From positions 1-52,663 of IMG/VR virus record IMGVR_UViG_3300033153_003470: 52,663 nt of DNA; one strand, written 5' to 3'. Shown here piece by piece: positions 12,598-50,818 of this stretch. The translations under genes were made by a program, and so were the position numbers. Position 1 is the stretch's first letter, and each line of letters opens with the position of its first letter. The stretch comes from a virus. A model generated the notes under the pieces. The model searched no databases and was not told where the DNA came from. It saw only the letters and a program-made list of their open reading frames with translations.

Positions 12598-15500
12598 ATG
12601 TCACTCGATTATTCGTTTCTTTCCGAAGAAGAAACCCAAGAAGAAGGGCTTGATTATTCGTTCTTAGGTCAAGAAGAAGAGCCTATAGAAGAACCTGCAG
12701 AAGAGGCGACAGTTCTCGCTGAGCCTGAGTTAATGCCAGAGCAGTCGGAACCGAAGCAAATACCAACCGCTTCTGGAGATTTCACGTCTGAAGAACACGG
12801 CGAACCCTTAAATCAGGATTCCGGTTTAGTTGGGCGCGCAGCAAAGAACCGCCAGCTTGCAGATCAGGAAAGCCCAGCATTACAGAATATGCTCGCTGAA
12901 GGCGTTGTAGGCATGTTCGGCCCAGCAATGAATAAGATTGCCGGTGTCGATAGCGACGATCCTGATTCAGCACAAAACCTAGCCGCAGAAGTATTCAATC
13001 CGGAAAACCTACGCCGACCACATTTACGTCCAACCGGCGAAACTGACGATAAAGACTGGCTTGATGCGATGGGTGAAACCGGATATCAACCGGAGCGCTT
13101 AATCCCTTTTCTTGGCCAAGGCTCAGAAATGGTCGATATCAAAGGACTATATGATGCAGCAAAGCGAATTGAAAGCGACGAAGGAAATGACCGAGATCAA
13201 GAATTAATCGAAGGCTGGATGGCCAGAGCGAAAGAAGATGCTGAGCGTGGGACTACTTTTGGTTACAAAGTTGTTGACCTATTAAGTCATTTACCTGGCT
13301 TCGTAGGCGAGTTTGCATTAACTGGCGGGACCTATACAGCCGGTAAAAATGTCGCATCAAAAGGCATTCTCAAACTATTAAAGCAAAGCATTAAATCGTC
13401 AACCAAAAAAGGCTTGTTGCGCCAAGGTGCCGAAGCTTCATTGGGTGCAGCTTTCCAAACATTACCGGCAATGGGAATGCGGATTGCTGGCAATACAATG
13501 AGCCGGATGCTGGATCAATATAACTTCAGTGCGGATGACGAAGGCAAACTGCAAGCCATAATGGAAGAAGGCGGCGATTCCTTTGGAATGGCAATGACCA
13601 AGGCGCTTGGCGATTCTTATATCGAAATGCTATCAGAGCGAAGCGGTGGTTCTATTCCTTTAATCTGGAAGAAGCTGCCAGGAACCAAAAAAATAATTGC
13701 ACTAAAAGCAGCTGTTATTGGCAAGTGGCTTAAAAGAAACCCAAACAAAAAACTGGATGCTCTATTAGCTACTATCCGCGAGAAAGGTGGATGGCATGGT
13801 GTGTTCGGTGAAATATCAGAGGAATTTATTGGTGATGCAGCGCGCTATGCCACTGGCGTCGAGGATACGTCTGCGTTTTACGAGCAGTACAAAAAAGGCG
13901 AGTTAGGCGAAAATGTTCTATCAATGGCTGTTGCCTTCTCTGTTCCTGGCGGCAGTGCAGCGCTTGCTCGATATAGCTTCCGAGAAAAAGAAACCACGGT
14001 AGATCAATCAGATCAGCCACCAGAACTATTCAATCCAACACATAAAGCGAACGGTGGCCAAGATGCTCAGATTGTCACAAAGAACGGAAAAGTTGTTCCG
14101 GACACCTATATGGATGCTCAAGGCAACGTATTTCGGGATAGTAATGCTGTTCCTAATAACCCTGATTCTGGCGATGTTTCTATGGACGTTAGCGCAAGAG
14201 CTGCTGAAATAAAGAACGAAATATTTGGTAAAACTGAAACAGAAACACCTCAACAAATTATTGAGCGTCTTGGCAATCAAAGCCGCGATGGTCAGTTAGC
14301 GTGGGCAGAACAAAACCCATTAGATCCACAGGCACCAAATCAGGACTCATTCTTAAGTGATGCTGAAAAGCAGGAAATGCACACAGCAAAACAAGCCTTA
14401 CCGTCTGCTGGGCAAGAGCAAGCCGATGCTAAGCAGCGGCTAAGTAAGAAGCTTGAAGCAAGATCAAAGCAAGAAACCGATGTTCCACATGGAACCTTAG
14501 TTAAGCCAACAGGTAAGGAAACCAAGGTAACTACCTCAACCGGAACGGATATTAATACTCAATTTGCTGTAGTAGAAGCTGATAGCTTGATTGCGTCGAA
14601 TGATGAGGCCGGCAATAAAAACCCAAATTACCCTACAGAATTACAGCCGCGTGACAGATCTCGCGGAGCATCACAGCTGCAGATTAAAAAAATTGCCAAT
14701 AATCTTAATCCGGTATTGCTGGAGGATTCTGTTAAGGCGTCCGATGGCGCACCAATTATTGGATCTGATGGGGTTGTAGAGTCTGGAAATGCCCGCACGT
14801 TAGGCATACGTGGCGCCTATGCAGCAAACAAGGCCGAAGCTTACAGACAACATCTAATTGATAACGCGGAGGCTTACGGGCTTTCTAAGGCGGAGATAAG
14901 CAATTTAAAGACACCGGTATTGGTTCGCGTTCGCCAAGGTGATATGGATCACGCTGGCCGTGCTGAATTTGCACGCCAGTCGAACCAGCCAGATATTGCA
15001 CCAATGTCAGCTGCAGAGCAGGCAGTATCAGACTCGGACCGGATCACGGACGAGGATATGCAGCTGTATATTCCTTCTGAGCAAGGCAATATCCTGGCAG
15101 CAACTAATCAGCCGTTCTTACAGCAGTTTGCTAAAAAGCTGGGTGATCTGGAAGTAGGCGGGTTATCCACAGCTGACGGTCGCTGGACAAAACAAATGGG
15201 CGATCGCGTCCAAGCTGCAGTATTCAATAAAGCGTATGGCAGTGAACGATTATTAAATCTTGTTGCCGAAGAAGCAGATCCAGATATTAAGAATGTCCTG
15301 AATGCGTTAAACCGTGCGGCACCAGCTTTTGCGCGTGCGCGTGCAGTTACAAAGGATATGGGTGATCTCGATATTATCAGCGACATTGTTGATGCCATCG
15401 ATGTTCTACGGAAAGCGAAAGCAGATAAAACCAGTGTTGAGCAAGCAGTCAGCCAGACCGGTTTATTTGGCAATATCGATCCAGTGGTAAGTCAGATCGC

Positions 15501-18500
15501 AAGATTCATTGAAGCAAACACACGAAGCCCTAAGCGATTAGGTATTGGCCTTGCAGAAATGGCGAAATTTCTGGAAGTTGAGCTGGCAAGTTCCGAGCAA
15601 GACGCACTATTCAGCAAGGAGCCAGTAGGTAAAGCGGATATTATCAAGGCCGCAGACACACAAATTAAAAAGGTATATGGCGATGAAAAGACAACAAAAG
15701 ATCTCTTCACGGAAACAAGAGCTGGTGAACAAGATGCTGGAGCAGGCCGTGATAGCGGGGAACAAGCTGAAGGTGCTGGAACCGGTACTGAAACTGCCGA
15801 AAGCTTAGCCGGAAAAGAAAAGTCTAAAAAGAAAACAGCTAAGAAGCGACTGCAGAAAAAGAAGAAAAAGGATTTACGTGCGGTGCCTTTCGACACTACT
15901 GGCATGAAACCAATGCCAGAGGAGTATCTTGGCCGCATGTATCGTCCTGGCGACTCGGCAGCAATTGAAAGCCTGACTGATAACGAGGCAATTAAACAAG
16001 CTTACGAATACAAAGGCAGTCGTGACTTTTTCCAAGAATTACTGGATGAGCAAAAGCCACTATGGATGGAAGCCCATGATGGCCGCGAACCAACAGCGGC
16101 TGAGTGGAAAACAGAAATGGGTATACTCGCCAAAATGACGCTTCAAGGCGATATGGATGAGATGGGCTTTATTGATGGCGAATATACGGAAATTGAAGAG
16201 CAAGACTGGAATGTTGGCGTCGGCATGTTCGAGGACCAAGGAAAGACTGACAGCTTTATCAGTAAGTTAGGCGACAACTATATCCCTAAGAAAGAAGCCA
16301 ATACCGCACTGAAAGAGTGGAAAGCCGAAGTTGAGCGCATTGGTCTGGAAGAAGATCACAGCAAAGAAATCGTTATCAGCTTGTTTGATGCGTCCGGTGA
16401 AATTACTAAACCCTGGCGTGAAGCAGGTTATGTGGTAGAGCAGTACGATATTCAGCTGGGCGACGATTTGATGTTTAAGCAATCGCCGCTGAATGCTGAA
16501 ATGATGGGCTACGATAAAAGCTATAAAGTGGTGGGTATTATTGCTCAGCCGCCTTGCACTTGTTTTAGCTCTTCTGGTGCGCGCTGGTGGCAGACACGCC
16601 ACGATAAGCATGATCGAGATATGGTTGATAAGATGTTCGGACCAGAGGCGAGCGTGTGGTTTAGCAAGCCTAAAGAGTACACGAAGGCACTTGTATCAAT
16701 GGTCGATGTTTGGATTGATCTGAATAAGTCAGATAATCCCGATCTGTTCTACGCGCTGGAAAATCCAGTAGGCCGTATTGCAAAAGAAACTGGATTACCT
16801 GCTCCAACAATGCGTTTTCACCCGCACAACTTCGGTGATCCGTACACAAAAAATACTGCGATATGGGGTAAGTTTAATAAAGATCTCCCTACCGCTAATG
16901 TTGAGCCTACGCTTGGTTCGCTCATGCACAAAATGTGGAGCACTGCAGAAACCAAAGACGGTGCCCGCTCATTAACTCCAGAAGGATTCGCTTATTCGTT
17001 CTTTATGGCGAACAACACGTCTGATGGTGCGCAGGCCGAAGCAAAGCCAGTGACGCTAAAAGAAGGCGATCAGTTCAATACAACGACTGGCAGAATTACA
17101 GCGCCTTTCCCGCGTTCAAACTACAAAGTTGAAAGCAAAAACCAGAAAGCTATCAATCAATGGCTCAAAAACGAGTATACCGCTGAAGCTGAGAGCCGTG
17201 GCGACGATTACAATGTCACTTTGGCTAAGAGCCTCGATGTAAATAATTGGTCGCAGGCAGACGGTGATGGCGTAAACCTGTACTTATTTGATGATGCTGA
17301 GGGACGTATAGGCAGTCGAAAAGTAGAAACTAAGCCAGCATTACCGGAAGCCACAGTTAAGCAGGTAGCGGCACTGAATAAGTTAGCCGATGCTATGCAG
17401 AAGGATATCGACAGCAAGCTTGATCCTGGTGTTGCTCATCAAAATCTAACCGCGCGACGCGCAGCACAGATCGACAGTATGAGAGGCGATGCAGAAAGAT
17501 TGCAGCATGCTCAAGCAATTATGCGCGGTATCGCAGAAGGACTGGAGAATGGGACCGTAGATTCAGCGCTGGCCAATGTGAAAAACAAGAAGACTGCGCT
17601 TGAACTGGTTCGATTATCTAAAGATAACGAATGGCTTAAAGACTTTGATCGCAACTCCGATGAAACAAAAGCATTATTGCAGCGAGCAAAAATCACTAAG
17701 AAGAATTACGCCAAGGCGCGCAAGGCTGCAAAAAACCTGATTAAGCCACCATCAAAAGAGCAGATACAAAAAGCCGATCTCCAAAAATTAGAGCGTGAGC
17801 TTATCGGTACAAAAATACCTGGCTTCTTTTCTACGCCACCAGCGGTAGCGCAAAAGGTTGTGGATAACGCAGATATCCAAGCAGGCATGACCGTGCTGGA
17901 ACCATCAGCCGGTACAGGCGGAATTGCTGACTTCATTCGAGATCAACAGCCAAAAGCAAAACTTACGGTTAATGAGCTCAATTACAAACTCAATCAAGTT
18001 CTTGAGGCAAAAGGATACAAACCAACACAGGGCGACTTTCTGAAGTTAAAAGGGAAGTACGATCGTATTGTGATGAACCCGCCTTTTGAAAAAGGTCAAG
18101 ATATTGAGCATGTGATGCACGCCTATTCATTATTGAATGATGGTGGTCGCATTGTTTCGATTATGAGCGAGAGCCCATTCCACCGGTCCGAGAAAAAATA
18201 CCAAGCATTCAGAGAGTGGATTGATGAGCTGGGTGCTGAAGTTGAAGAACTGCAGTCCGGAGATCTATCAGATCCAGCCGCGCCACAGCGAAGCAACGTA
18301 AAAGGCCGCATTCTCACATTGGTAAAAGAGGCTGGGAATGTTTTACCGGTTCCTGATTTAGCGTCAAGAGCAGAACACAGCGGGCAAGCAAAGGCCGGTG
18401 GTGAGTGGGGTGTAAATGGTGAATGGTACAGAGGTGGGCAATTTATGCCTGCAAGTGCGCGAACCGTAAAAGGCGAGTACAAAGCTTCATACACAGCTGG

Positions 18501-18915
18501 GACCGGAAGACAGCTCATAGCGCCAGGGGAGTTTGCTGTACCGCCAGCTGGTGGACTATCTATATTTAGCGGTATCAGATCGCTGGTCAAATATGGCGAT
18601 GATGGTGTTTTATCTCCAATAAACAATAAGCTGGCAATCAAGTCTTATGGTGGCATGAAGCAGCTGAAGAGAAAGATTGATTTATACAATAAAGGCATTC
18701 GCTTTGTTGATGAAAGCAATAATCCGATATCTCCAGCTGGTGCAGTAGCGGAGGGCCAGAGCCAATATAAGGCAATGGAAGGCAAAGAGGTCAGCTACGA
18801 AGTTGAGGTTGAAGATACTGGGGAAACCTATACAGTAACGGTTGATGCTGGCGTGGTAATGAAAGATCTCGACGCCAGAACTGAAGCGCTACGAAAACTC
18901 AAAGAGTGCATTTAG
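12598..18915 (+). CDS. Giant polyvalent internal protein (2105 aa) with ParB-like and two methyltransferase-like domains
   Basis: One uninterrupted frame. Two LDYSFL repeats open the acidic N-terminus, and residues about 215-460 are helical and hydrophobic (LLSHLPGFVGEFALTGG; FGEISEEFIGDAARYATG). Residues about 645-1000 match the DdrB/ParB-like domain of polyvalent proteins (NPNYPTELQPRDRSR; GSDGVVESGNARTLGIRGAY). A Lys-rich linker follows near 1075-1098. Residues about 1257-1400 resemble cytosine-C5 methyltransferases: VISLFDASGE, QPPCTCFSSSG, ALENPVGR. Residues about 1750-1900 are an adenine-type methyltransferase, with LEPSAGTGG near 1768 and NPPF near 1827. Polyvalent proteins of this sort are thought to enter the cell with phage DNA and protect it; that role is inferred. 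Confidence 0.75.
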   Translation: MSLDYSFLSEEETQEEGLDYSFLGQEEEPIEEPAEEATVLAEPELMPEQSEPKQIPTASGDFTSEEHGEPLNQDSGLVGRAAKNRQLADQESPALQNMLAEGVVGMFGPAMNKIAGVDSDDPDSAQNLAAEVFNPENLRRPHLRPTGETDDKDWLDAMGETGYQPERLIPFLGQGSEMVDIKGLYDAAKRIESDEGNDRDQELIEGWMARAKEDAERGTTFGYKVVDLLSHLPGFVGEFALTGGTYTAGKNVASKGILKLLKQSIKSSTKKGLLRQGAEASLGAAFQTLPAMGMRIAGNTMSRMLDQYNFSADDEGKLQAIMEEGGDSFGMAMTKALGDSYIEMLSERSGGSIPLIWKKLPGTKKIIALKAAVIGKWLKRNPNKKLDALLATIREKGGWHGVFGEISEEFIGDAARYATGVEDTSAFYEQYKKGELGENVLSMAVAFSVPGGSAALARYSFREKETTVDQSDQPPELFNPTHKANGGQDAQIVTKNGKVVPDTYMDAQGNVFRDSNAVPNNPDSGDVSMDVSARAAEIKNEIFGKTETETPQQIIERLGNQSRDGQLAWAEQNPLDPQAPNQDSFLSDAEKQEMHTAKQALPSAGQEQADAKQRLSKKLEARSKQETDVPHGTLVKPTGKETKVTTSTGTDINTQFAVVEADSLIASNDEAGNKNPNYPTELQPRDRSRGASQLQIKKIANNLNPVLLEDSVKASDGAPIIGSDGVVESGNARTLGIRGAYAANKAEAYRQHLIDNAEAYGLSKAEISNLKTPVLVRVRQGDMDHAGRAEFARQSNQPDIAPMSAAEQAVSDSDRITDEDMQLYIPSEQGNILAATNQPFLQQFAKKLGDLEVGGLSTADGRWTKQMGDRVQAAVFNKAYGSERLLNLVAEEADPDIKNVLNALNRAAPAFARARAVTKDMGDLDIISDIVDAIDVLRKAKADKTSVEQAVSQTGLFGNIDPVVSQIARFIEANTRSPKRLGIGLAEMAKFLEVELASSEQDALFSKEPVGKADIIKAADTQIKKVYGDEKTTKDLFTETRAGEQDAGAGRDSGEQAEGAGTGTETAESLAGKEKSKKKTAKKRLQKKKKKDLRAVPFDTTGMKPMPEEYLGRMYRPGDSAAIESLTDNEAIKQAYEYKGSRDFFQELLDEQKPLWMEAHDGREPTAAEWKTEMGILAKMTLQGDMDEMGFIDGEYTEIEEQDWNVGVGMFEDQGKTDSFISKLGDNYIPKKEANTALKEWKAEVERIGLEEDHSKEIVISLFDASGEITKPWREAGYVVEQYDIQLGDDLMFKQSPLNAEMMGYDKSYKVVGIIAQPPCTCFSSSGARWWQTRHDKHDRDMVDKMFGPEASVWFSKPKEYTKALVSMVDVWIDLNKSDNPDLFYALENPVGRIAKETGLPAPTMRFHPHNFGDPYTKNTAIWGKFNKDLPTANVEPTLGSLMHKMWSTAETKDGARSLTPEGFAYSFFMANNTSDGAQAEAKPVTLKEGDQFNTTTGRITAPFPRSNYKVESKNQKAINQWLKNEYTAEAESRGDDYNVTLAKSLDVNNWSQADGDGVNLYLFDDAEGRIGSRKVETKPALPEATVKQVAALNKLADAMQKDIDSKLDPGVAHQNLTARRAAQIDSMRGDAERLQHAQAIMRGIAEGLENGTVDSALANVKNKKTALELVRLSKDNEWLKDFDRNSDETKALLQRAKITKKNYAKARKAAKNLIKPPSKEQIQKADLQKLERELIGTKIPGFFSTPPAVAQKVVDNADIQAGMTVLEPSAGTGGIADFIRDQQPKAKLTVNELNYKLNQVLEAKGYKPTQGDFLKLKGKYDRIVMNPPFEKGQDIEHVMHAYSLLNDGGRIVSIMSESPFHRSEKKYQAFREWIDELGAEVEELQSGDLSDPAAPQRSNVKGRILTLVKEAGNVLPVPDLASRAEHSGQAKAGGEWGVNGEWYRGGQFMPASARTVKGEYKASYTAGTGRQLIAPGEFAVPPAGGLSIFSGIRSLVKYGDDGVLSPINNKLAIKSYGGMKQLKRKIDLYNKGIRFVDESNNPISPAGAVAEGQSQYKAMEGKEVSYEVEVEDTGETYTVTVDAGVVMKDLDARTEALRKLKECI

Positions 18916-24544: not shown

Positions 24545-24812
24545 CCTGCAGCCAGGGCAAGGCTTGGGCCTTACAGGCAGTAAAGAGATCGCGCTTGGCC
24601 TTGGTTATGTTGCTGGCGACTACGTGCCTCCAGTCGAACCACCAATACCTAAGCCTGAAATACCTAGTTCTGGCGGGGGTGGTCGATACGATCCTGGCTA
24701 TACTCGTCAGCGCGAGGATGCTTTAAAAGAAACTCGAAGAAGGCGTATACTTCAGGAAGACGACGATATTACGGCAGTCATAATGGCTATGGTTACTAAG
24801 GATTTATTATAA
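24537..24812 (+). CDS. Small Pro/Gly-rich virion protein (91 aa), GTG start
   Basis: The start is GTG, inside the last codons of the upstream gene (8 bp overlap), and the stop overlaps the ATG of the second giant gene, so the three are translationally coupled. The N-terminus FNLQPGQGLGLTGSKEIALG is a motif found in small phage proteins in the same position. It is followed by a Pro-rich linker, an Arg-rich helix (RQREDALKETRRRR) and a short hydrophobic end. Function unknown. Confidence 0.5.
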   Translation: MFNLQPGQGLGLTGSKEIALGLGYVAGDYVPPVEPPIPKPEIPSSGGGGRYDPGYTRQREDALKETRRRRILQEDDDITAVIMAMVTKDLL

Positions 24813-27800
24813 TGTCACTCAAGAAATGTATCAAAGCAACCACCAACCTGAATGATGCTGATGTCGAAAGTGTTACCGATTCCTTTGACACATACAGCGA
24901 GCGTATGGACCAAGATGTAGCGGCAAAGCTTGCTATCGATGACACTATTGCATCGCTCGAACAAGAGCGGGCAGAATATCTTGAGTTGTTCGATGAAACC
25001 TACCCAGAAGCCAGAAAGCCAGTAGAGAAACCAAAAAGCAGAGTGCAGTCTTTTGACTCGGACACTGAAACCGGTGAAGCCGTGCGCACCATGAAGGGCA
25101 AGCAATCTGGCTGGGGCCTCAAAGAGCACTATAAAAACGCGCACGATAATCAGGTCTTATTAAACGAAGTAGCTGAAAGCATCACCACAGTAACCAGCGC
25201 TAATTACATTCACGCACCAAAAGAATTTGCACAATCTGAAGCTGGCGAAAAAACCAAGAAATCAGCCAGAAGAAAAATTAACGAGAAGTACCGCGGCGAC
25301 GGATCAAATATGACCGATATCGTTCGCGGCACCTTTACCGTTAAATCCCCAAAAGATGTGGCGGTTATTACTGCGAGACTTGGCGAACAATTTGATGGTG
25401 TGGACGAAGGCTGGGCAATGACTTCAACCGGATACTTTGATCGCAAGATATTGATCCAGTTCGACGGTGGACAGATAGGTGAGATCCAGCTGGTAGCGCC
25501 CAACACGCTTAATGCAAAAGAAAATCTAGGGATGCACGACGTATATGACGATTGGCGCAAAACGCTCACGCCAAGCAAGAAGACTGGGAGCTTGGTAATT
25601 AAGCCAGGTATGGAATTTTTATCAAGTCTCGAAAAAAATACTATGTCACGGTTCTACGCCGAAGCAATTGGTGCAGAGGCTGACACAGCATGGCGCGATG
25701 TTTATGCAGATGTAGCGCGCTCTAGTTTGTCTACCCAAGATTCAAGCGAGCTCATTGAGATGAGTTTAGCGTCATCGATAACCACATCTACATCTTCAGA
25801 GGCCCAAGCTCCATCACGGAAAACAGCTGCGGCCACTTCTTTTTCTGGTGTTTCAAAAAGCACGGTAGGCTCGTATTCATACGAAAGCGAGCGAACTATT
25901 CTGCCTAGTGGAAAATCCATTATTGACTCCTATATTAAAAGCTTACCTAAAACCGCGATAAGAGGCGGCGTGAGGTTAGATCTACGCAGCGGAAAAGACG
26001 ATATCCAGACTGGCGATTTCATACAGCATACACCACCAGCAGAGCAGTCGCCAAAAAAATCACTTACTGTTGAAAGCTTAACTGGCATAACGAAGAGCTT
26101 ACAGCGCGACTTCCACGGAACCAGAGAGCTGCATTTCCATATATTTGAGACACAGGCTGAAGCGTTTGGTTCAAATTCTGTGAAAGAAAACGGCGTATTG
26201 AAGGGCGGGTTCTATGCCGGCACCAATGAAGTTGTCATGATCGCCGAGAACATCAAAGACGTGAACGAAGCAATAACCGTGATGCGGCATGAGGTTGTGG
26301 GCCACTTCGGTTTGCGCAAGCTGTTAAACGGTAAAGGCGAATATGATGCCTTACTGGTGCGCGTTTATGATTCGCGTACTGGCGAGCTAAAGGATCTGTA
26401 TGATTGGGTTGCGAAAATATACCCAGATCTTATTGTTAAAAATGATATTCGTGCAATTGCTGACGAGATGTTGGCGCGAGCAGCTGAAACAAAAACAAAA
26501 TCTAACCTGCTCACTAAAATTTATGATGAGATTATTAAGCTGCTGAATAAAATCGGCTTAGTAATGGACACGATTAGCCATAGTGAAGTTGATTCACTTG
26601 TTCGCTCAAGTGAAATGCTATTAAGAAAAAACATTATCAGTCAGTCTTACGGCAATCTTGTGTGGTCAGATAAAGCAGATGGCGTGAGAGAGCAGGCGCA
26701 ATTCGATCTGTTTACACCAGAAGGCTTGCCAGCAGAAGTTGCGCGCAGCCAGGTAACGGATAATTTTAATATCAAGTACAAGCAGGTTGAAGTAGGAAAA
26801 TTAAAAGTCGGATTGACTACGGTTACTAGCCCAGAAGAAGCGGCGCACGTACTGGCGCCAATTCGTAAGCATGGCCAAGAAACAATGATGGCCGTCGTAT
26901 TAGATAAGAATAAAAAAATACTACACGTTATTCGCCACACGAAAGGTGTGAAGGATGGAGCAAGCGTAAGCCCAGTAGAATTAGCTGCGGCAATTGGCGC
27001 AACAGAAAAAGCTGCGAGCGTATGGATTGGCCATAATCACCCTTCGGGCCAAGCGATACCGTCGAGTGCAGATAGAACAATAACCGGTAGAGTAAAAGAT
27101 GCGCTTGACGGTTCTGGCATTGAGTTGAAGGGACATATAGTTCTTGGCAAGGGCGCCGCTGCATACAGCATGGACGGTAACGGCGATCTAATGGGCGAAA
27201 TTAAAGCAAAGCCTCTTGTCAGAAAATCTGCAGCGCCTGTTACTGAGCGCATGATCCGTAAAAACAAAATGGAAGACGCCCCCACGATTACCAACACTAA
27301 AACCGCAAAAGAATTTATTAGAAATGAAGCCACAAAGAACGGCGTTATTTTAATGAATACCCAGCATTATGTGATCGGCGTTTTATCTATGTCACCACAT
27401 GAAATGAAAAACCTGCGTGACGGTAAGCAGATCCCGAGAATACTAAAAGCAATAGATGAAACAAATACCAGTGCGGTTATTGTTGTTACCGAAGATAAGA
27501 ACGCGGCACACAATCTTAATACTTATTTTATGCGGCTTGGCGACTTAAACAGATTGGATACGTTTGTTCGTGACGGCGCCAGCATTATAAGTTTGGAAGA
27601 AAGAGGTGAGGCGTCGGGTTCGTATGGCGCAGTGTTTCATCGCAAAGAAGATCAGGTTGACGGGGGCCGTAGAGTCTTCGACTCTAATGATCCTAATATT
27701 TTATTCAATCGTGCAGCCGACACTATTAATGATGCGCCCACTGACGGCAACTTAGGTATGCCAGATGAAACCGTGAAAGATCGTTGGTTGCGCGGGCTGC

Positions 27801-30460
27801 ATGACGCCTTTAATCGCGTGAAAAAACTACAGGAAACCATTGAAGAAAGGGGCGGTAAAATTGAAACGGAAACCGATGTATACCGCACAGAAGAACGCTC
27901 AAGCAGCAAGATATCTTTCCGGTTAAGAGAGCTTGAGAAGCAGCGCCAGAAACCCATGCGCGAATTGATGAAGAAGAATGGCATCGATCTCGATACGCTT
28001 GATTTATTCGTAATGGCGAAGCATGCCCAAGAACGCAACGAATATATTGCCAGCATTAACGATGAAATGCCTGACGGCGGATCTGGTATCACGAACCAAG
28101 AAGCGCGAGATATTCTTGAGGAACTTTCTGATAGCCGTGAAGTATTAGAAGAAATCGCGGAATTTGTTTACACCGTTAATAATGAGGCGCTGACCAATCT
28201 AGTTGAAGGTGGCCACTTAAAACAAGAAACCGCAGATGAGTGGCGAGCTCGATGGAAATACTACGTGCCGCTAAAAGGAAAGGATGGAATAGAATTACAC
28301 GCTGGCACCGGAACCGGTTTTGCTATATCTGGCGCAGGCATTAAAAAAGCAATGGGCCGAGGTGAGGGTAACAGAGCAGAAAGCCCAGTAGCTCATAGTT
28401 TTGCGCAAGCAGAATCAATCATTGTTCGCACCGAGAAAACAAAGGTCGGTAGAGCGTTAGTTGAGCTGGTTCGCGCTAACCCTGATCCTGGCTTCTGGAC
28501 TATCAGCAAGCGCGTATATAAAAAGTTTGAGACATTATTTGGCGAGCCTTTTGAGGGTTACGAAGAAGCGCCAGAAGGTTTGATTGAAGACGTAGATTAC
28601 CATCGTGTATCTGCAATCAGCCAAGAAGAGCGGGCGCGGGCAAAGAAAGAAGGCCGCAAACCGGTTGGTAAGATCGTGTATCGATTAGATCAAAACTATA
28701 AGCGCCGCGATGATGTGTTTACAGTTATGGTTGAAGGTGAAGAGCTGCTAATCAACATTAAAGATAAAGTGTTAATGGAGCAGCTGAAAAAAATGAACAC
28801 GACACAGCTCAATGCGGTTGTTCGTGGGTTCGGCAGACTTAATCGATATCTTGCGATGATCAATACCGCGCTAAACCCAGAATTTGTTATCACTAACTTT
28901 GAGCGTGATTTCCAAACCGCCATGATTAATCTGGGTGGTGAGCATTCCGCGGCAATTGCTGCAAAAGTAATGAAGGGGATCCCTGGCGCAATGCGTGGTA
29001 TCTGGCAGTCAACATTCGACACCAAAGGTACTTCTGAATGGCGCGCCTTATTCGATGAGATGCAGGAAGCTGGCGGCACCATCGGTTTCTTTGGCTTAGA
29101 AGATATCGAAACGAAAGTAAAAAACATTCAGCGTAAGCTTACTGATCAACCTGGCGTGCTGGGCCAAACCAAAAAAGGTCTTTTGACAGTTCGAGATATC
29201 GTGTTGGACGCCAACCTATCAGTAGAAAATGCGTCACGTTTAGCTGCATACAAAGTGATAAAAGAAGAGTCGCTTAAGAACGGCATGAGCATGAAAGATG
29301 CAAAAGCCAAAGCCGCATCGGTTGCTAAAAATCTAACGGTAAACTTCAATCGTAAAGGTGAATTGGCTCCAGTATTCAACAGCGCCTATCTATTTTTTAA
29401 TGCAACAGTACAAGGCTCAATGCGTATTATTACAGCGCTGAAGCACAAGCGCGTTCGCAAGATTGTCACTGGCGTTGCTATAGCGGCGTACTTCCAAGCA
29501 ATGTATAACCAGGGCGCGGGTGGCGACGATGAGGATGGCGTTCCGAATTGGGATAAAATTAGCGACTACTTAAAGCAGACTAATATAATTTTCATGCACC
29601 CAGATGGATCTGGTAACTACAGTAAAATTAAGTTGCCTTATGGGTACAATGTATTCTATTACGCCGGCACAGCTATGTATGACTTGCAATACGGCAAGGA
29701 TTCATCAGCAACAAAAACAACGATGAACATGCTATCTGCGATATTGAATGCTTATAACCCAATACAAGGTGCCGATTTGCTTGACTCTATAACTCCTACA
29801 TTCTTAAAGCCGTATGAGCAGGACGTAAGAAATACAAACTTCATGGGTGCCAAGCTTAAGCCTGAGTATCCGTTCGACACTTACGATCGCCCAGAATCAC
29901 AGAAGCATTTTAAGTCTACGAACCCACAGCTTGTGGAAATGATGAAGTATCTTAATGAGGCGACCGGTGGCGATGAAACCCACTCTGGGCTAATTGATAT
30001 GTCTCCTGAAATAGTAGAGCACTACATTGGCTGGGTAACAGGTGGTGCCGGTAAGTTCGCAACACGAACAATCGATACCGCATCAAAATTAGTAACCGGC
30101 GACGAGATAGATCAAAGAGATGTGCCTTTCCTCCGGACATTAGGTGGAAAGCGTGGATCGCACTACGACACAAACCGATACTATGAATCAATGAAAGCGG
30201 TGGCTGCGGTCGAGGCTCAGCTGAAGCTGTACAAGGGAACCGATAACTGGGCCGACTACAGAGACAAAAACTCTGAGGTCCATAAGCTTGCGATAAACGT
30301 GAGAAGATATAAGAACGCCATTAAAAATCTGCGCACACAGCGAGACAAGGCATACATCGATGACGATCGGGACCTGGCTGCAGAAAAAACTGAAATGATC
30401 CGCCAGAGAATGATGGAGTTTTCCATGAAATATGATGAAGCGCTTGAGGAACAGAAATAA
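24812..30460 (+). CDS. Giant polyvalent internal protein (1882 aa): RelA/SpoT-like, zincin, RadC/JAB and LPD38-like domains
   Basis: Domains in order: residues about 145-250 follow RelA/SpoT-type nucleotidyltransferases (MTDIVRGTF, GYFD, GEIQLVAP, then a H-D-V-Y helix). Residues 493-498 are HEVVGH, a zinc-peptidase motif. Residues about 650-800 are a RadC/JAB domain, H741-N-H743-P-S-G with D754. A second, degenerate alpha/beta domain follows (about 825-945), then FDSNDPNILFNRA. From about 985 to the C-terminus the sequence is like LPD38, with YYVPLKG near 1150 and NFERDFQTAMIN near 1363. Such proteins are packaged and ejected in other phages. The order of toxin-like and processing domains suggests a multi-effector delivered at infection, which is inference. 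Confidence 0.75.
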   Translation: MSLKKCIKATTNLNDADVESVTDSFDTYSERMDQDVAAKLAIDDTIASLEQERAEYLELFDETYPEARKPVEKPKSRVQSFDSDTETGEAVRTMKGKQSGWGLKEHYKNAHDNQVLLNEVAESITTVTSANYIHAPKEFAQSEAGEKTKKSARRKINEKYRGDGSNMTDIVRGTFTVKSPKDVAVITARLGEQFDGVDEGWAMTSTGYFDRKILIQFDGGQIGEIQLVAPNTLNAKENLGMHDVYDDWRKTLTPSKKTGSLVIKPGMEFLSSLEKNTMSRFYAEAIGAEADTAWRDVYADVARSSLSTQDSSELIEMSLASSITTSTSSEAQAPSRKTAAATSFSGVSKSTVGSYSYESERTILPSGKSIIDSYIKSLPKTAIRGGVRLDLRSGKDDIQTGDFIQHTPPAEQSPKKSLTVESLTGITKSLQRDFHGTRELHFHIFETQAEAFGSNSVKENGVLKGGFYAGTNEVVMIAENIKDVNEAITVMRHEVVGHFGLRKLLNGKGEYDALLVRVYDSRTGELKDLYDWVAKIYPDLIVKNDIRAIADEMLARAAETKTKSNLLTKIYDEIIKLLNKIGLVMDTISHSEVDSLVRSSEMLLRKNIISQSYGNLVWSDKADGVREQAQFDLFTPEGLPAEVARSQVTDNFNIKYKQVEVGKLKVGLTTVTSPEEAAHVLAPIRKHGQETMMAVVLDKNKKILHVIRHTKGVKDGASVSPVELAAAIGATEKAASVWIGHNHPSGQAIPSSADRTITGRVKDALDGSGIELKGHIVLGKGAAAYSMDGNGDLMGEIKAKPLVRKSAAPVTERMIRKNKMEDAPTITNTKTAKEFIRNEATKNGVILMNTQHYVIGVLSMSPHEMKNLRDGKQIPRILKAIDETNTSAVIVVTEDKNAAHNLNTYFMRLGDLNRLDTFVRDGASIISLEERGEASGSYGAVFHRKEDQVDGGRRVFDSNDPNILFNRAADTINDAPTDGNLGMPDETVKDRWLRGLHDAFNRVKKLQETIEERGGKIETETDVYRTEERSSSKISFRLRELEKQRQKPMRELMKKNGIDLDTLDLFVMAKHAQERNEYIASINDEMPDGGSGITNQEARDILEELSDSREVLEEIAEFVYTVNNEALTNLVEGGHLKQETADEWRARWKYYVPLKGKDGIELHAGTGTGFAISGAGIKKAMGRGEGNRAESPVAHSFAQAESIIVRTEKTKVGRALVELVRANPDPGFWTISKRVYKKFETLFGEPFEGYEEAPEGLIEDVDYHRVSAISQEERARAKKEGRKPVGKIVYRLDQNYKRRDDVFTVMVEGEELLINIKDKVLMEQLKKMNTTQLNAVVRGFGRLNRYLAMINTALNPEFVITNFERDFQTAMINLGGEHSAAIAAKVMKGIPGAMRGIWQSTFDTKGTSEWRALFDEMQEAGGTIGFFGLEDIETKVKNIQRKLTDQPGVLGQTKKGLLTVRDIVLDANLSVENASRLAAYKVIKEESLKNGMSMKDAKAKAASVAKNLTVNFNRKGELAPVFNSAYLFFNATVQGSMRIITALKHKRVRKIVTGVAIAAYFQAMYNQGAGGDDEDGVPNWDKISDYLKQTNIIFMHPDGSGNYSKIKLPYGYNVFYYAGTAMYDLQYGKDSSATKTTMNMLSAILNAYNPIQGADLLDSITPTFLKPYEQDVRNTNFMGAKLKPEYPFDTYDRPESQKHFKSTNPQLVEMMKYLNEATGGDETHSGLIDMSPEIVEHYIGWVTGGAGKFATRTIDTASKLVTGDEIDQRDVPFLRTLGGKRGSHYDTNRYYESMKAVAAVEAQLKLYKGTDNWADYRDKNSEVHKLAINVRRYKNAIKNLRTQRDKAYIDDDRDLAAEKTEMIRQRMMEFSMKYDEALEEQK

Positions 30461-42744: not shown

Positions 42745-42773
42745 ATGATATAGCTATTAGTTATGCAAAGCAA
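42745..42773 (-). promoter_or_regulatory. Promoter P2 with spacer operator motif
   Basis: TTGCTT (minus 42773-42768), exactly 17 bp, TATCAT (42750-42745). Plus-strand TAGCTATTAGTTA (42751-42763) abuts the -10; it is the reverse complement form of the P3/P4 motif. The -35 lies inside the last codons of the PAPS-reductase-like gene. Confidence 0.75.
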
Positions 42774-43579
42774 GCGCTCTGTACTGAACCCAAAACTTCA
42801 TTAATTAAAATGTTTGCTGTTTTATAATTCCTGTACAAAGTGCGTGGTTCCGGAACATGGACGCCTTTGATTTTGTTCTTACCAACGGTTCCGTAAGTTT
42901 TCTCAATGTGGTTTGGGTAATCAAAAATACTCGGATCTTCAGCTAAGATCCTCTTCAACTTCTTCTCACACTTTTTGAAACACCAAGCACAGTTCCCTTG
43001 GTAATCTTCAATCTCTAAATCAAATTCCTGGCTCTTCCAGAAATCCCAAACGTCTTGCTGAGTTACATTGATGATGTCAGCCAATGGGTAGATCTTGTTC
43101 TGCCAGTGCGCGTTTCTCTTTAAGCGTTTCGGTTCGTCACCTCGGATACCGATAGCAGTTTGATAAGTACCTTTCTTCCAACCAACAACATTCTGAACAT
43201 AGTGGTGGATGGGATTCTCTTTCAATTCTCTAGTACAGTGCATGTAAGCTTTGTTAGGGATGCCGTACTTTTTAACTACCTCAGTGTAGGGTGAGTTTTC
43301 AAACTCAGTTCTACGTGTTGCTGTTTCGTGATTAACAACCTTATGAGTCGATGCGATACGAACGCCGTGATGAACTTCAGCCTCTACCCAGACAACGCCC
43401 AAGTCGAAAGCCTTATCAACCGCTTCAACAAAATCCAAAGTTTCATCGTTTTCTTGTCCAGTGTTAGCGAACACATAAACAATATTATATTCGTCGCTAT
43501 AGTATTTTTTCATGTGATAAGCCATCAGGCCGGAACTGCGACCGCCACTGAATGTGACTAATAGATTTGGCTTACTCAT
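42761..43579 (-). CDS. PAPS-reductase / adenine-nucleotide alpha-hydrolase-like protein (272 aa)
   Basis: The PP-loop SGGRSSG (residues 11-17) in VTFSGGRSSGLMAYHMKKYY and the following YVFANTGQENDETLDFV define the family, which activates substrates by adenylation. MHCTRELKENPIHHYV and a C-terminal NCAWCFKKCEKKLKR cluster suggest a metal or Fe-S site. Phage members may take part in thiolation of nucleic acids or in sulfur metabolism; the true substrate is unknown. It is the first left-facing gene from the divergent control region, so it is expressed early. Confidence 0.75.
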   Translation of the reverse strand: MSKPNLLVTFSGGRSSGLMAYHMKKYYSDEYNIVYVFANTGQENDETLDFVEAVDKAFDLGVVWVEAEVHHGVRIASTHKVVNHETATRRTEFENSPYTEVVKKYGIPNKAYMHCTRELKENPIHHYVQNVVGWKKGTYQTAIGIRGDEPKRLKRNAHWQNKIYPLADIINVTQQDVWDFWKSQEFDLEIEDYQGNCAWCFKKCEKKLKRILAEDPSIFDYPNHIEKTYGTVGKNKIKGVHVPEPRTLYRNYKTANILINEVLGSVQSACFA

Positions 43580-43688: not shown

Positions 43689-43937
43689 ATGAGTGTTAGA
43701 GCAGGTTTAGATAAAGCGTTTAAAATTATGAGTAAATCAGCGCTGGCTGACGAACTGGGTATCAGTTACCAGTCAATGAACCGTTGGTATGACTACAATG
43801 AAATGCCGTGTACCGAGTACAATGGTAAAACAATGTACTCAAAACAGATTGAAAAGCTTACTGATGGCAAAGTGACAATTAAAGAACTGTGTGGGTTCGT
43901 GCCATTTCCGCAGACAGATAAGTGGAATAAAAAGTAG
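43689..43937 (+). CDS. Cro-like repressor (82 aa)
   Basis: A small helix-turn-helix protein of the Cro/YdaS kind: GLDKAFKIMSKSALADELGI then SYQSMNRWYDYNEMP is the HTH, and YSKQIEKLTDGKVTIKELCG is the usual closing helix pair of this family. ATG 43689 follows GGGAGATCCAAA. It diverges from the leftward promoter P1 and precedes the replication genes, the place of Cro in lambdoid phages. It is the best candidate to bind the repeated 13-mers; that is inference. No second (CI-like) repressor is in the window. Confidence 0.8.
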   Translation: MSVRAGLDKAFKIMSKSALADELGISYQSMNRWYDYNEMPCTEYNGKTMYSKQIEKLTDGKVTIKELCGFVPFPQTDKWNKK

Positions 43938-43939
43938 AC

Positions 43940-43981
43940 AAAAAAATACCCGCTTTGACATTTGGTGTCTCTGGCGGGTAT
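43940..43981 (-). terminator. Leftward intrinsic terminator
   Basis: Arms ATACCCGC (43946-43953) and GCGGGTAT (43974-43981) enclose an inner GACA/TGTC pair. On the minus strand the stem is followed by seven T (43946-43940). The plus strand has no T-run after the stem, so it works leftwards. It ends the RNA described at 43940-44017. Confidence 0.75.
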
Positions 43982-44017
43982 CCTGCTTATTCGGTTTAGC
44001 GGCCAACAAGCAACGTG
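43940..44017 (-). ncRNA. Candidate OOP-like small RNA (about 78 nt)
   Basis: A leftward promoter (44024-44052) and a leftward intrinsic terminator (43940-43981) define a transcript of roughly 78 nt with no reading frame of note. A 5' stem (GCTTGTT pairing with AATAAGC) precedes the terminator hairpin, with a single AGGA between them. It is antisense to the leader of the replication gene and ends 2-3 bases beyond the Cro-like stop codon. Lambda OOP RNA has the same place (between the cro/cII side and O), direction and size. Expression is not shown by sequence. Confidence 0.55.
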
Positions 44018-44023
44018 GGATTG

Positions 44024-44052
44024 ATTATCTATCTTTCTGTCAAATAAGACAA
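44024..44052 (-). promoter_or_regulatory. Leftward promoter of the small RNA
   Basis: TTGTCT (minus 44052-44047), exactly 17 bp, GATAAT (44029-44024). It lacks the 13-mer of promoters P1-P5, so it would be controlled differently from them. Start point expected near 44017. Confidence 0.55.
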
Positions 44053-44090
44053 GCCCACGATGTTGAGATTAACTTTTATGGGGTTTGTTA

Positions 44091-44840
44091 ATGCACTACT
44101 ACCAATTTAATGTTGCGGATTACCGCAAAGACACCGGCCACTTATCCACAGAAGAACATTATGCTTATCGCTGGCTGATGGACAATTACTACCTTACAGA
44201 GAAACCAATACCCAAAGAAACCCAACTGGTTATCCGTCGGTTAGGGTTGGGTTCGGATGGGTTAGAGTCGGTTACTAACGTGCTCAATGATTTCTTCGTT
44301 TTGCTTGATGATGGGTGGCATCATAAGCGTATTGACGCAGAAATTGAGCATTACCACTCAAATTCAAAGAAAAACAGAATAAACGGAAAAAAGGGTGGGC
44401 GCCCTAAAAAACAACAACTTAGCGACGATAAAAAACCCAAAAAAACCCAGTCGGTTACGGATGGCAACCCAAACAAAAGCGAAACTAACCCTAACCAAGA
44501 ACCAATAACCAATAACCATAAAGATCAAAACACTACGTCGGTGGCTACACCACCAACCTGTAAACATAATGAGATCATTCAGATTTATCGGGAAACATTA
44601 CCTGAGTTACCTAATGTTGTGCTGGGTAGATATAAGGGCTCAACAAAAGAAAAGGATCTCAGGGCAAGATGGAAGGAAGATAAAGTGCACCAAGATATAA
44701 ATTTCTGGAGAGATTTTTTTAAGGTGGTTAGAACGAACCCGCATTGGATGGGGGAAAACGATCGAAGCTGGACCGCAAGCTTTGGATGGCTAATAAAACG
44801 AAGTAATTTTGATAAAGTAATTGAATGGGGGCTGAAATGA
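44091..44840 (+). CDS. DUF1376 replication protein, helicase-loader-like (249 aa)
   Basis: Residues 1-95 are a DUF1376 domain (MHYYQFNVADYRKDTGHLS; HYAYRWLMDNYYLTEKPIP; FFVLLDDGWHHKRIDAEIE), typical of YdaU-like phage replication initiators. A basic, Asn/Lys-rich linker and a C-terminal domain (DLRARWKEDKVHQDINFW; WTASFGWLIKRSNFDKVIE) resemble the end of lambda O/DnaT-like proteins that recruit helicase. ATG 44091 is preferred (ATGGGGTTTGTTA upstream) over a TTG at 44085. It overlaps the helicase gene by 4 bp. Confidence 0.75.
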   Translation: MHYYQFNVADYRKDTGHLSTEEHYAYRWLMDNYYLTEKPIPKETQLVIRRLGLGSDGLESVTNVLNDFFVLLDDGWHHKRIDAEIEHYHSNSKKNRINGKKGGRPKKQQLSDDKKPKKTQSVTDGNPNKSETNPNQEPITNNHKDQNTTSVATPPTCKHNEIIQIYRETLPELPNVVLGRYKGSTKEKDLRARWKEDKVHQDINFWRDFFKVVRTNPHWMGENDRSWTASFGWLIKRSNFDKVIEWGLK

Positions 44841-46186
44841 GTGAGCTGATTGAAGTGCCGCACTCAATCGAAGCAGAGAGAAGCGTTCTTGGTTCGGTAT
44901 TGATTGACAACGCAGTTTTTGATTCGGTGAGCTTTCTGACCTCTGATGATTTTTACTCAGCTGCGCACAGATCTATTTTTGCTAAAATCTCAGATCACCT
45001 AAACAACGGGAGAGCAGTGGATCCGGTTATTCTGCATGAGAGCTGGGCAGAGATAAATGAGAACGGGGGATTAAGTTATCTGGGCTCCTTGGTTAAAGGC
45101 ACACCAACCACCGCGAACGTAAAAGCCTACGCAGGCATTGTTAAGAAGAAGGCGCGGTTAAGAGGATTGGCAAAAGTGAGCAGCGAGATTTATGCGTTAA
45201 TGGGCAGCGAAGACGTTGATGCCGCGATTGATCAAGCCCAGGCTTTAGTGATGAGTCTCGGAGAAAATCACAAAAAACAAAAAACAATGAAGGAAGCGTT
45301 AGCGAACGTCATAGATAATTTAGAAGAAAGATACAACAACAAAGGCAAGCTGGTAGGACTATCAACTGGGTTTTGCGATATAGATAAACGACTTAACGGG
45401 CTAAATAAATCAAACCTGATTATTTTAGCCGCACGCCCAGCAATGGGTAAAACCACTCTTATGATGAATATCGCTGAGAATGTTGGCATAGATCAGCATT
45501 TACCGGTTGCTATATTTTCTATGGAGATGGCTTTTGAAGAGCTGCTGGATAAATCCGTGTGCTCTATTTCTGGTATAGATTATGGCGAATACAGATCCAA
45601 TGTTGATGAGGAAATTTTACAGAAATCTGTACATGGCTGCAGCAAGCTAATGTCCTCAAATATTATAATCGATGACAGGCCCGCGCTAACCGTCAATCAA
45701 ATACGATCTAAATGCAGAGAAATAAAAAGAACTCAAGGACTTTCTTTAGTTTGTGTTGACTACCTGCAGCTGATGACCGGCAAAGGAGAGAACCGCGTAC
45801 AGGTTATATCTGACATATCGAGAGGGTTAAAAAGCCTTGCCAAAGAGCTTGAGGTGCCCGTTATCGCGCTATCTCAACTTAATCGCTCAGTAGAGCAAAG
45901 ACCAAACAAAAGACCGCAGATGTCCGATTTGCGTGATTCAGGGGCAATTGAACAGGATGCCGATGCTATTTTATTTCTATACCGCGATATCGTTTATGAC
46001 GCAGACTCAAGATGGGAAGGAATTACAGAGATTGAAACGGCCAAGCAGCGCAGTGGCACAGTAGGTAGAAACTACCTATCGGACCAACTTCAATACAGCA
46101 GATTTAAGAATTTTTGTGGCGAACTACCTGACGACGACCGCCAGAACGTATCGAGCATGAAAAATTATTATGGCGGTAAAAAATAA
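44837..46186 (+). CDS. dnaB: Replicative DNA helicase, DnaB type (449 aa)
   Basis: The N-terminal domain (VPHSIEAERSVLGSVLIDN) and RecA-like ATPase are both present: Walker A ARPAMGKTTLMMNIA near residues 198-212, IFSMEMAFEELLDKSV, Walker B SLVCVDYLQLM, VIALSQLNRSVEQRPNKRP, SDLRDSGAIEQDADAILFLY, and AKQRSGTVG near the end. The length is near the family norm. The hexamer unwinds DNA at the phage fork. Start 44837 overlaps the upstream stop (ATGA). Confidence 0.92.
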   Translation: MSELIEVPHSIEAERSVLGSVLIDNAVFDSVSFLTSDDFYSAAHRSIFAKISDHLNNGRAVDPVILHESWAEINENGGLSYLGSLVKGTPTTANVKAYAGIVKKKARLRGLAKVSSEIYALMGSEDVDAAIDQAQALVMSLGENHKKQKTMKEALANVIDNLEERYNNKGKLVGLSTGFCDIDKRLNGLNKSNLIILAARPAMGKTTLMMNIAENVGIDQHLPVAIFSMEMAFEELLDKSVCSISGIDYGEYRSNVDEEILQKSVHGCSKLMSSNIIIDDRPALTVNQIRSKCREIKRTQGLSLVCVDYLQLMTGKGENRVQVISDISRGLKSLAKELEVPVIALSQLNRSVEQRPNKRPQMSDLRDSGAIEQDADAILFLYRDIVYDADSRWEGITEIETAKQRSGTVGRNYLSDQLQYSRFKNFCGELPDDDRQNVSSMKNYYGGKK

Positions 46187-47621: not shown

Positions 47622-47824
47622 GCACAACTATCGACAAAACAAAAGAAATCGCAGAAGAAGTAAGAAAGCTATCAGCATCTATTCGCAGATTCCGTGACGG
47701 GCCGTTAAACAACAGATGTATTTTGCTGCTTCTGCGCGATGTCACTGGTTTAGGTATGAATGAGATTGATGCTGTACTTAAGGGCGCCGCAGATCTTGAT
47801 AAGAAATTCTTGAAGGATTCATAA
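47618..47824 (+). CDS. Hypothetical helical protein (68 aa)
   Basis: ATGA overlap with the gene upstream and one-base overlap with def downstream. Helical throughout (EIAEEVRKLSASIRRFRDG; CILLLLRDVTGLGMNEIDA), in the style of a small HTH, but no confident match. Function unknown. Confidence 0.45.
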   Translation: MSTTIDKTKEIAEEVRKLSASIRRFRDGPLNNRCILLLLRDVTGLGMNEIDAVLKGAADLDKKFLKDS

Positions 47825-48258
47825 TGATCAAACGAATAGTGACAAACAAGGAACAGCTTGCGATCCCCAGCAAAGAAATACATGACCAAGATCTAATCGC
47901 TGAAATTGTACGGGACCTAAAAGATACCGCGCAATACTACGCAGGCACGAAAGCCGGTTGCGTGGGTTTAGCTGCGAACCAGCTGGGCTACTTACACCGC
48001 ATTATCCTTATTCAGCATTCCGGAATATGGATCGCAATGATAAACCCCGCTATCGAAAGAGTAGCTGGCTGTAAAAGCAAGCTTGAGGGTGAAGGCTGTT
48101 TATCGCGCCCTGGCGTTCATAGAAAAATACGCAGAGATAAGAAGATCATTATCCGGTACTGGGATGAAGATGAAGATCTAATTCAAGAAGAAGTTAAGAA
48201 CTTTACAGCAAGAGTTATTGCCCACGAGTGCGACCATCTTGACGGTAAGTTTATATGA
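47824..48258 (+). CDS. def: Peptide deformylase (144 aa)
   Basis: All three motifs of the metalloenzyme are present: GLAANQ (residues 48-53), EGCLS (90-94, metal-ligand Cys92) and HECDH (134-138, two His ligands and catalytic Glu135). It removes the formyl group from nascent N-formyl-methionine. At 144 aa it is shorter than the usual 165-170 aa host enzyme because it lacks the C-terminal helix, as in phage-encoded forms. It is placed between small unknown genes and an HNH gene. Confidence 0.92.
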   Translation: MIKRIVTNKEQLAIPSKEIHDQDLIAEIVRDLKDTAQYYAGTKAGCVGLAANQLGYLHRIILIQHSGIWIAMINPAIERVAGCKSKLEGEGCLSRPGVHRKIRRDKKIIIRYWDEDEDLIQEEVKNFTARVIAHECDHLDGKFI

Positions 48259-50254: not shown

Positions 50255-50818
50255 ATGGACACAAAATCACAGCACGTAACAATATCAACAATGAACAGGG
50301 GAACGAACATGCAGCGATATATTGGCACCAAACTAATTAATGCAATACCGATGACTCGGCTTGAATACAATAATTTCCGTGGATGGCTGTTACCTGAAGA
50401 TGAAGAAGCAACCGATGACGGTTATCTGGTTGAGTATCTTGATGGTGGAAAACCCAATACTGACGAATATGATGGTTATGTAAGCTGGTCCCCAAAAGAA
50501 CAATTCGACAACGCATACCGTAGAGTGACCGAGTGTAGTTTCGGGCTTGCTGTTGAAGCAATGAAGAACGGCATGAAAGCAGCGCGAACCGGCTGGAACG
50601 GTAAAGGCATGTTCTGCATTTATGTGCCTGGCACAAAAGAAGCTAAGCTAAGAGAGGGCACACCTTATGCGCTGGCATTACCGAACATGGAGACAATTGA
50701 TATTTTGCCTCATTTTGATATGTACACGGTAAACGCTCAAGGCCGGCGTGCAATGTTACCTGGCTGGTTAGCATTACAGTCAGATATCGATGCAGACGAT
50801 TGGATTATTTATAAGTAA
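50255..50818 (+). CDS. Tad2-like (DUF2829) anti-Thoeris protein with N-terminal fusion (187 aa)
   Basis: Residues 95-187 match DUF2829/Tad2: FGLAVEAMKNGMKAARTGWN, GKGMFCIYVPG and LPGWLALQSDIDADDWIIY. Tad2 proteins bind and sequester the cyclic ADP-ribose signal of the Thoeris defence. Residues 20-92 are a separate module with KLINAIPMTRLEYNNFRGW and YVSWSPKEQFDNAY, which I know from other phage proteins of unknown function. The start at 50255 has GGGGATAGTAAG; ATG 50309 with AGGGGAACGAAC is an equally good start at the edge of the conserved part. Confidence 0.7.
   Translation: MDTKSQHVTISTMNRGTNMQRYIGTKLINAIPMTRLEYNNFRGWLLPEDEEATDDGYLVEYLDGGKPNTDEYDGYVSWSPKEQFDNAYRRVTECSFGLAVEAMKNGMKAARTGWNGKGMFCIYVPGTKEAKLREGTPYALALPNMETIDILPHFDMYTVNAQGRRAMLPGWLALQSDIDADDWIIYK

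Follow-up and report, generated by a model that had tools for sequence, protein, structure and literature searches.

The question raised by this locus is what is encoded in the short gap between an early regulator gene and the replication genes of a virus, and whether it controls replication. The sequence analysed is the virus record IMGVR_UViG_3300033153_003470, positions 1 to 52,663, and this whole stretch of 52,663 bases is called the window here. A reading made from the sequence only had proposed a leftward promoter–terminator unit whose RNA, comparable to the OOP RNA of phage lambda, would be antisense to the DUF1376 initiator leader and possibly control replication. Our analyses agree with the arrangement and, as far as sequence can tell, make replication control its likely role, while the relation to OOP had to be reconsidered.

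Promoter, hairpins, and terminator in the leader of the initiator gene

The HTH, DUF1376, and DnaB-like genes are all transcribed rightward, and the leader in front of the initiator gene contains three inverted repeats, namely the terminator, a middle hairpin at 43984-44012, and the repeat CGTGGG/CCCACG around the promoter (Table 1). The hexamers, their spacing, all coordinates, the length of about 78 nt, the GC-rich hairpin, and the seven T were found exactly as the sequence-only reading had given them. It had not described the middle hairpin, which is the most conserved part of the element, nor the promoter-enclosing repeat. With its arms spelled out, the middle hairpin reads UGCUUGUU-GG-CCGCUAAA-CC-G-AAUAAGCA. 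The predicted RNA ends at 43940, 3 nt past the stop codon of the HTH gene at 43937.

The promoter alone is unconvincing, because such matches occur at chance level over 8 kb (18 consensus promoters observed versus 16.9 expected from shuffles); its score was equalled by 9 of 731 minus-strand tiles (about 1%) and by 21 of 1000 local shuffles. More weight can be given to the terminator than to the promoter: with −16.3 kcal/mol and seven T, it is the most stable of six T-followed hairpin candidates in a scan of 38-50 kb, and a fixed-rule scan missed it because of its large loop. The predicted RNA folds better than its shuffles (z −2.8), and this increases to z −4.2 when the promoter stretch is included. 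Both strands of the interval fold well, and a T-run was looked for behind the hairpin on the sense strand (CCTGCTTATTCGG) and not found, as had been claimed before; a sense-leader attenuator was rejected for this lack of a U-run. The accompanying claim that the minus strand has no reading frame here has to be corrected, as a mechanically called ORF of 56 aa with a TTG start (43839-44009) does cross the RNA interval, although it is unlikely to be a gene, since it passes the terminator and runs on into the antisense of the HTH gene. An Rfam covariance-model search of the interval gave no match at the gathering score and chance-level matches alone, and a tRNA scan found nothing.

Table 1. Features of the HTH–initiator region of the window.
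Feature	Coordinates	Strand	Remarks
Small HTH regulator	43689..43937	+	phrog_35 transcriptional repressor; YdaS-like match below cut-off
Sense leader (proposed target), HTH stop codon to initiator start	43938..44090	+	hairpin loop UUUAGCGG, YUNR inside
Predicted antisense RNA, ~78 nt	43940..44017	-	distance from -10 to end of T-run; fold z −2.8
Putative intrinsic terminator	43940..43981	-	stem 43974-43981/43946-43953; inner GACA/TGTC hairpin 43957-43969; seven U 43946-43940
Putative 5' recognition hairpin UGCUUGUUGG-CCGCUAAA-CC-G-AAUAAGCA	43984..44012	-	loop 43995-44002, bulged G 43992
Inverted repeat CGTGGG/CCCACG enclosing promoter	44014-44019/44054-44059	.	start site ~44017 within left arm
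-10 hexamer GATAAT, spacer 17	44024..44029	-	
-35 hexamer TTGTCT, antisense promoter	44047..44052	-	
Possible 16-aa leader peptide frame (ATG TTG AGA ... TAA), overlapping initiator start	44060..44110	+	read from sequence; weak ribosome site
DUF1376 primosomal/replication-initiation protein; proposed target	44091..44840	+	phrog_21472/9327-type
DnaB-like replicative helicase, in operon with DUF1376 gene	44837..46186	+	

Several further features of the window were recorded. Within the DUF1376 gene, GGTTAGGG/ACCCAA-type repeats occupy 44203-44530, a region that shows in part DNA-level similarity to Thalassomonas phage BA3 and a Chlorobiaceae phage; the repeats are a candidate origin with iterons, or merely low-complexity coding sequence. 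Host-type metabolic genes lie by the replication region (PAPS-reductase-like, 42761-43579; peptide-deformylase, 47824-48258), and a protein with a Tad2-like domain (Thoeris anti-defence 2-like; Pfam E 1.7e-18) is encoded at 50255-50818. Two giant genes (12598-18915 and 24812-30460; 2105 and 1882 aa) have methyltransferase and DNA-repair-like parts and resemble large phage proteins without known function.

Elements of the same kind in other phages

Three relatives, L017, L018, and L019, were retrieved solely by a similarity search with the HTH protein of the window (82%, 70%, and 75%, respectively). The antisense strand of the L018 leader carries TTGATA-16-TATAAT at the same place as the window promoter, the hairpin UAUUGG-GAG-CCGCUAAA-CUU-A-CCAAUA, and then a terminator with seven U; this element precedes a GIY-YIG nuclease-like gene, which is followed by a DnaD-like initiator. 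In L017, the hairpin CAGGU-GC-UCGCCAAA-GU-A-ACCUG, together with a six-U terminator, lies ahead of a replication-initiation gene, and no promoter was recognisable there (781 of 1000 shuffles scored equally well). Both phages have an extra small ORF between the HTH gene and the antisense RNA. The HTH–initiator gap of L019 contains no such element. The hairpins of the window, L018, and L017 share a loop of 8 nt, which is CCGCUAAA in the first two and UCGCCAAA in the third, and a one-nucleotide bulge that lies 2-3 bp beneath the loop on the 3' side; their stems have no common sequence yet are paired. From the comparison of these three hairpins, we therefore derived the loop consensus YCGCYAAA, with the bulge always on the 3' side. 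Hairpins of this kind with a common loop turned up in none of 20,000 dinucleotide-shuffled leader pairs, and in 35 when up to two mismatches were allowed.

Two other arrangements were noticed in these relatives. Another RNA-like motif, TAACCCAA-N4-CTGAGATAyGCnAATTA, whose flanking arms can pair (13 bp in L030), is present in L018 (3440-3500, minus strand), L017 (3840-3905, minus strand), L030 (7440-7505, plus strand), and L033 (1105-1133, minus strand). It stands directly before the terminator in L018, in L017, and in the otherwise different phage L030 (= L033), and it was not found in the window or in the prokaryote genome collection. In L017 (3250-3560), copies of TTGTTATATTTTTA and a palindrome, TAACGGCC...GCGTTAATGC, flank the small ORF that separates the HTH gene from the antisense element, an arrangement resembling an integron attC cassette.

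A scan with the loop pattern ATAATCA-N8-22-GCCGCTAAAC returned 41 virus contigs, including L018's own (L032) and without the record of the window. Just two of these, L018's contig and L073, have a stable bulged stem and a terminator in a non-coding place. L073 has the hairpin UCGGAU-UAG-CCGCUAAA-CUA-UC-AUCCGA with a bulge of 2 nt, a convincing terminator outside a gene, and the near-consensus promoter TTGACA-17-GATAAT. Its element lies antisense in a leader, downstream of a phrog_35 HTH gene and upstream of replication-initiation genes, and its divergent genes read like ERF and YqaJ recombination genes, a layout as in the window, where ERF and YqaJ genes are located in the leftward arm. Because the scan that found L073 searched for the loop, its identical loop carries no independent weight, in contrast to its stem, its promoter, its terminator, and its place.

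Every stem column common to all four examples shows two to three base-pair types, and no pair is broken in the drawn structure; shuffled flanks gave bulged stems of this kind at 19-559 per 100,000. Across the 650 kb of DNA that was fetched, the bulged hairpin with a YCGCYAAA loop was confined to the four examples and L055. On the antisense side, the T/U-run has seven residues in the window, seven in L018, and six in L017, and it is broken but U-rich in L073, compared with at most three on the sense side, and the promoter is at the same place in three of the four. The comparison among related phages that the sequence-only reading had called for thus revealed that the loop is conserved, that the stem covaries, and that the terminator keeps its orientation. 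Going by their family assignments, the four initiators belong to different families: phrog_21472/9327-type in the window, phrog_428/1163 in L017, phrog_2514 in L018, and phrog_270/9327 in L073.

Other candidates were set aside. L055, which lacks a terminator, and L060 were rejected as members for a protein-coding context or the missing terminator. In a TATAAT loop scan, nearly all of the matches listed were chance or coding. L100 was left out, as its similar hairpin, promoter, and terminator have the sense direction; they lie between small genes of a 155-kb contig (6563-6660, plus strand) and comprise TTGACA-17-TATTAT, an interrupted hairpin of 15 bp with the same CCGCTAAA loop, and a terminator.

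The sequence-only reading had expected related phages that keep the genes to keep the promoter and hairpin as well, and this expectation held in part: the element is present in L018, L017, and L073, but L019 and the isolate phages BA3, X14, and PGA have the genes without it. In the three isolates, which have the same gene order, the HTH gene abuts the DUF1376 gene and leaves no room for an element. No such element precedes the gene in DUF1376 relatives from IMG/VR and isolate phages, and HTH and motif scans gave no matches in the prokaryote genome collection. As relatives with similar genes lack it, the element, of which our sample comprises four examples, is an optional module of some replication operons.

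A proposed antisense RNA against the initiator leader

The sequence signals and folds, the conserved loop on a compensated stem, and the orientation and position of the elements are direct observations, and they lead us to consider it probable that the interval encodes a cis-acting antisense (countertranscript) RNA whose kissing loop mediates repression of initiator synthesis. We infer its transcription, the kissing, the repression, and the effect on replication from these features. RNA polymerase would start near 44017 on the minus strand, and the terminator would release it by 43940, just before the HTH gene is reached. The transcript would fold into the recognition hairpin, with its 8-nt loop CCGCUAAA and 3'-side bulge, and then the terminator hairpin, and the rightward operon mRNA, comprising HTH, DUF1376 initiator, and DnaB, would bear the complementary leader hairpin with the loop UUUAGCGG, in which UUUA/UUAG would fit a YUNR U-turn. 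Loop–loop kissing would extend into a duplex, and the leader mRNA would then be cleaved in an RNase III type of reaction or be kept poorly translated, so that initiator synthesis would drop as template number rises.

Other explanations have to be weighed against this countertranscript. The size, the direction, and the place in the gap between early regulator and initiator would also suit a true OOP-type RNA, in which leftward transcription destabilises the upstream regulator mRNA, the promoter activates the origin, and the initiator is affected secondarily. OOP is thought to work via RNase III cleavage of the cII mRNA (PMC5869508). We regard such a function as unlikely here, as the HTH coding region is not overlapped, cII is absent, an extra small ORF separates the HTH gene from the RNA in L018 and L017, and the conserved loop hairpin has the design of a kissing element. 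Slightly less probable still is a role in trans, with the conserved CCGCUAAA loop binding other mRNAs or a protein and the overlap with the leader being incidental. We keep it as a rival mainly because the loop stays while the stems vary, the reverse of the plasmid element REx-C (PMC5304414), and the loop is identical in the distant phage L073; yet no other ribosome site within the window offers a full complement of the loop, and all four elements are antisense in leaders of initiator operons.

The fact that both strands fold well, that promoter consensus matches are common, and that the promoter is surrounded by an inverted repeat could alternatively mean that the repeats act as DNA or as sense-strand RNA, be it as origin or single-strand initiation signals, as an operator, or as leader structure, and that the promoter match is due to chance. 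This seems improbable to us, since the U-run is on the antisense side in all four examples, the promoter keeps its place in three of them, and conservation is confined to the loop while the stems are compensated. That promoter-like and terminator-like matches have simply coincided without function fits the promoter counts, which do not exceed those of shuffles, but it is very hard to reconcile with the loop-sharing shuffles, the 650-kb scan, and the stem pair types.

A broader reading, which we offer tentatively and consider rather less likely than the countertranscript function itself, is that a mobile, plasmid-style antisense control module is common to unrelated phages and is placed before non-homologous initiators, its YCGCYAAA kissing loop being fixed and its stems free to change. 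It might serve as a brake on replication timing or copy number and, as the loop is common to these phages, possibly cause cross-phage incompatibility; because of the shared loop, interference between co-infecting phages would be predicted. If four phages have a defined RNA that keeps its kissing loop, antisense control of phage replication could be tested cleanly with two components.

Relation to lambda OOP and to plasmid copy control

The OOP RNA of lambda has a length of 77 nt. Like OOP in its pO-oop-tO arrangement, the window RNA would be a short leftward RNA of similar size in a regulator–initiator gap, with a promoter and a hairpin terminator, and to this extent the earlier comparison stands. 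OOP shares 52 bases with the 3' end of cII, whose mRNA is its target (PMC5869508), whereas the window RNA does not overlap the upstream gene, there is no cII gene in between, and a conserved loop hairpin is found instead. Because of the missing overlap and the absence of cII, the window RNA is not an OOP homologue, and membership in that family is unsupported. The parABS mycobacteriophages use a noncoding RNA in replication, with RNA-based origins (PMC7157519), but their RNA is needed for initiation without RepA, whereas the RNA of the window would oppose initiator synthesis.

Judged by analogy, the countertranscript modules that control plasmid copy number fit better than OOP. As in that class, the RNA would be complementary to an initiator leader downstream of a repressor gene, and its recognition hairpin has an upper stem with a bulge of 1-2 nt and YUNR in the sense loop (UUUA/UUAG or UUGG). 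Kissing recognition loops have a YUNR U-turn in one partner (PMC4485353), and the sense loops UUUAGCGG and UUUGGCGA contain YUNR, although a random 8-nt loop fits such a short motif quite often. In copB-copA-repA of R1 and copG-RNAII-repB of pMV158, the antisense RNA likewise lies in the gap between a repressor gene and the initiator (PMC5717011), and window, pMV158, and R1 share the order repressor, antisense RNA, initiator in a single operon. R1 additionally has the tap leader peptide and a second promoter, neither of which is shown in the window, and no sequence relation to pMV158 or R1 was shown. The position of the 16-aa frame at 44060-44110 is analogous to that of tap/repI, but its translation found no support, including from comparison.

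The RNAI of the I-complex (ColIb-P9/IncB/IncK) shares a loop motif with the phage elements: the sense loop UUUGGCGA of L017 contains UUGGCG exactly and the others UUAGCG, so that an IncI-like motif UURGCG runs across the examples. The ColIb-P9 leader hairpin contains TTGGCG, a motif that a structural study cited in PMC10724649 names in its title. The I-complex RNAI differs in its longer stem and its pseudoknot switch, and no homology to the phage elements was shown. A pseudoknot partner between leader loop and initiator start was absent from the window (433 of 500 shuffles were as good), L017, and L073. In L018, 10 bp can form between the sense loop GUUUAGCGGC and GCCGCUGAAC immediately in front of the ribosome site of the next gene (3515-3576, plus strand; −17 kcal/mol; 0 of 500 shuffles), which is possibly a pseudoknot or an alternative leader fold. 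With a partner in L018 only, the pseudoknot was rejected as a general mechanism.

The REx-C element of Pseudomonas plasmids (RepA-PFP, RepJ, pRA2) has three stem-loops, of which stem-loop 1 is the antisense terminator and stem-loop 3 contains the antisense promoter, and this one module is found ahead of non-homologous rep genes (PMC5304414). The window resembles it in the three stem-loops, with the terminator in the first and the promoter in the third, and the phage elements do so in standing before non-homologous initiators. In the REx-C plasmids, the stems are constant and the recognition loop of stem-loop 2 is variable (PMC5304414), and a loop swap relieves incompatibility, whereas the phage elements keep the loop and vary the stems, which may mean either that the loop has a second partner or that these phages are under no pressure to become compatible. 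REx-C was compared by its published description; searches for plasmid DNA similar to the window or L018 leader gave no useful match, and we therefore claim analogy and not descent. In anatomy, plasmid countertranscript modules such as those of pMV158, R1, and REx-C appear to be the nearest known systems, and an RNA of this kind in phages would connect copy control in phage and plasmid.
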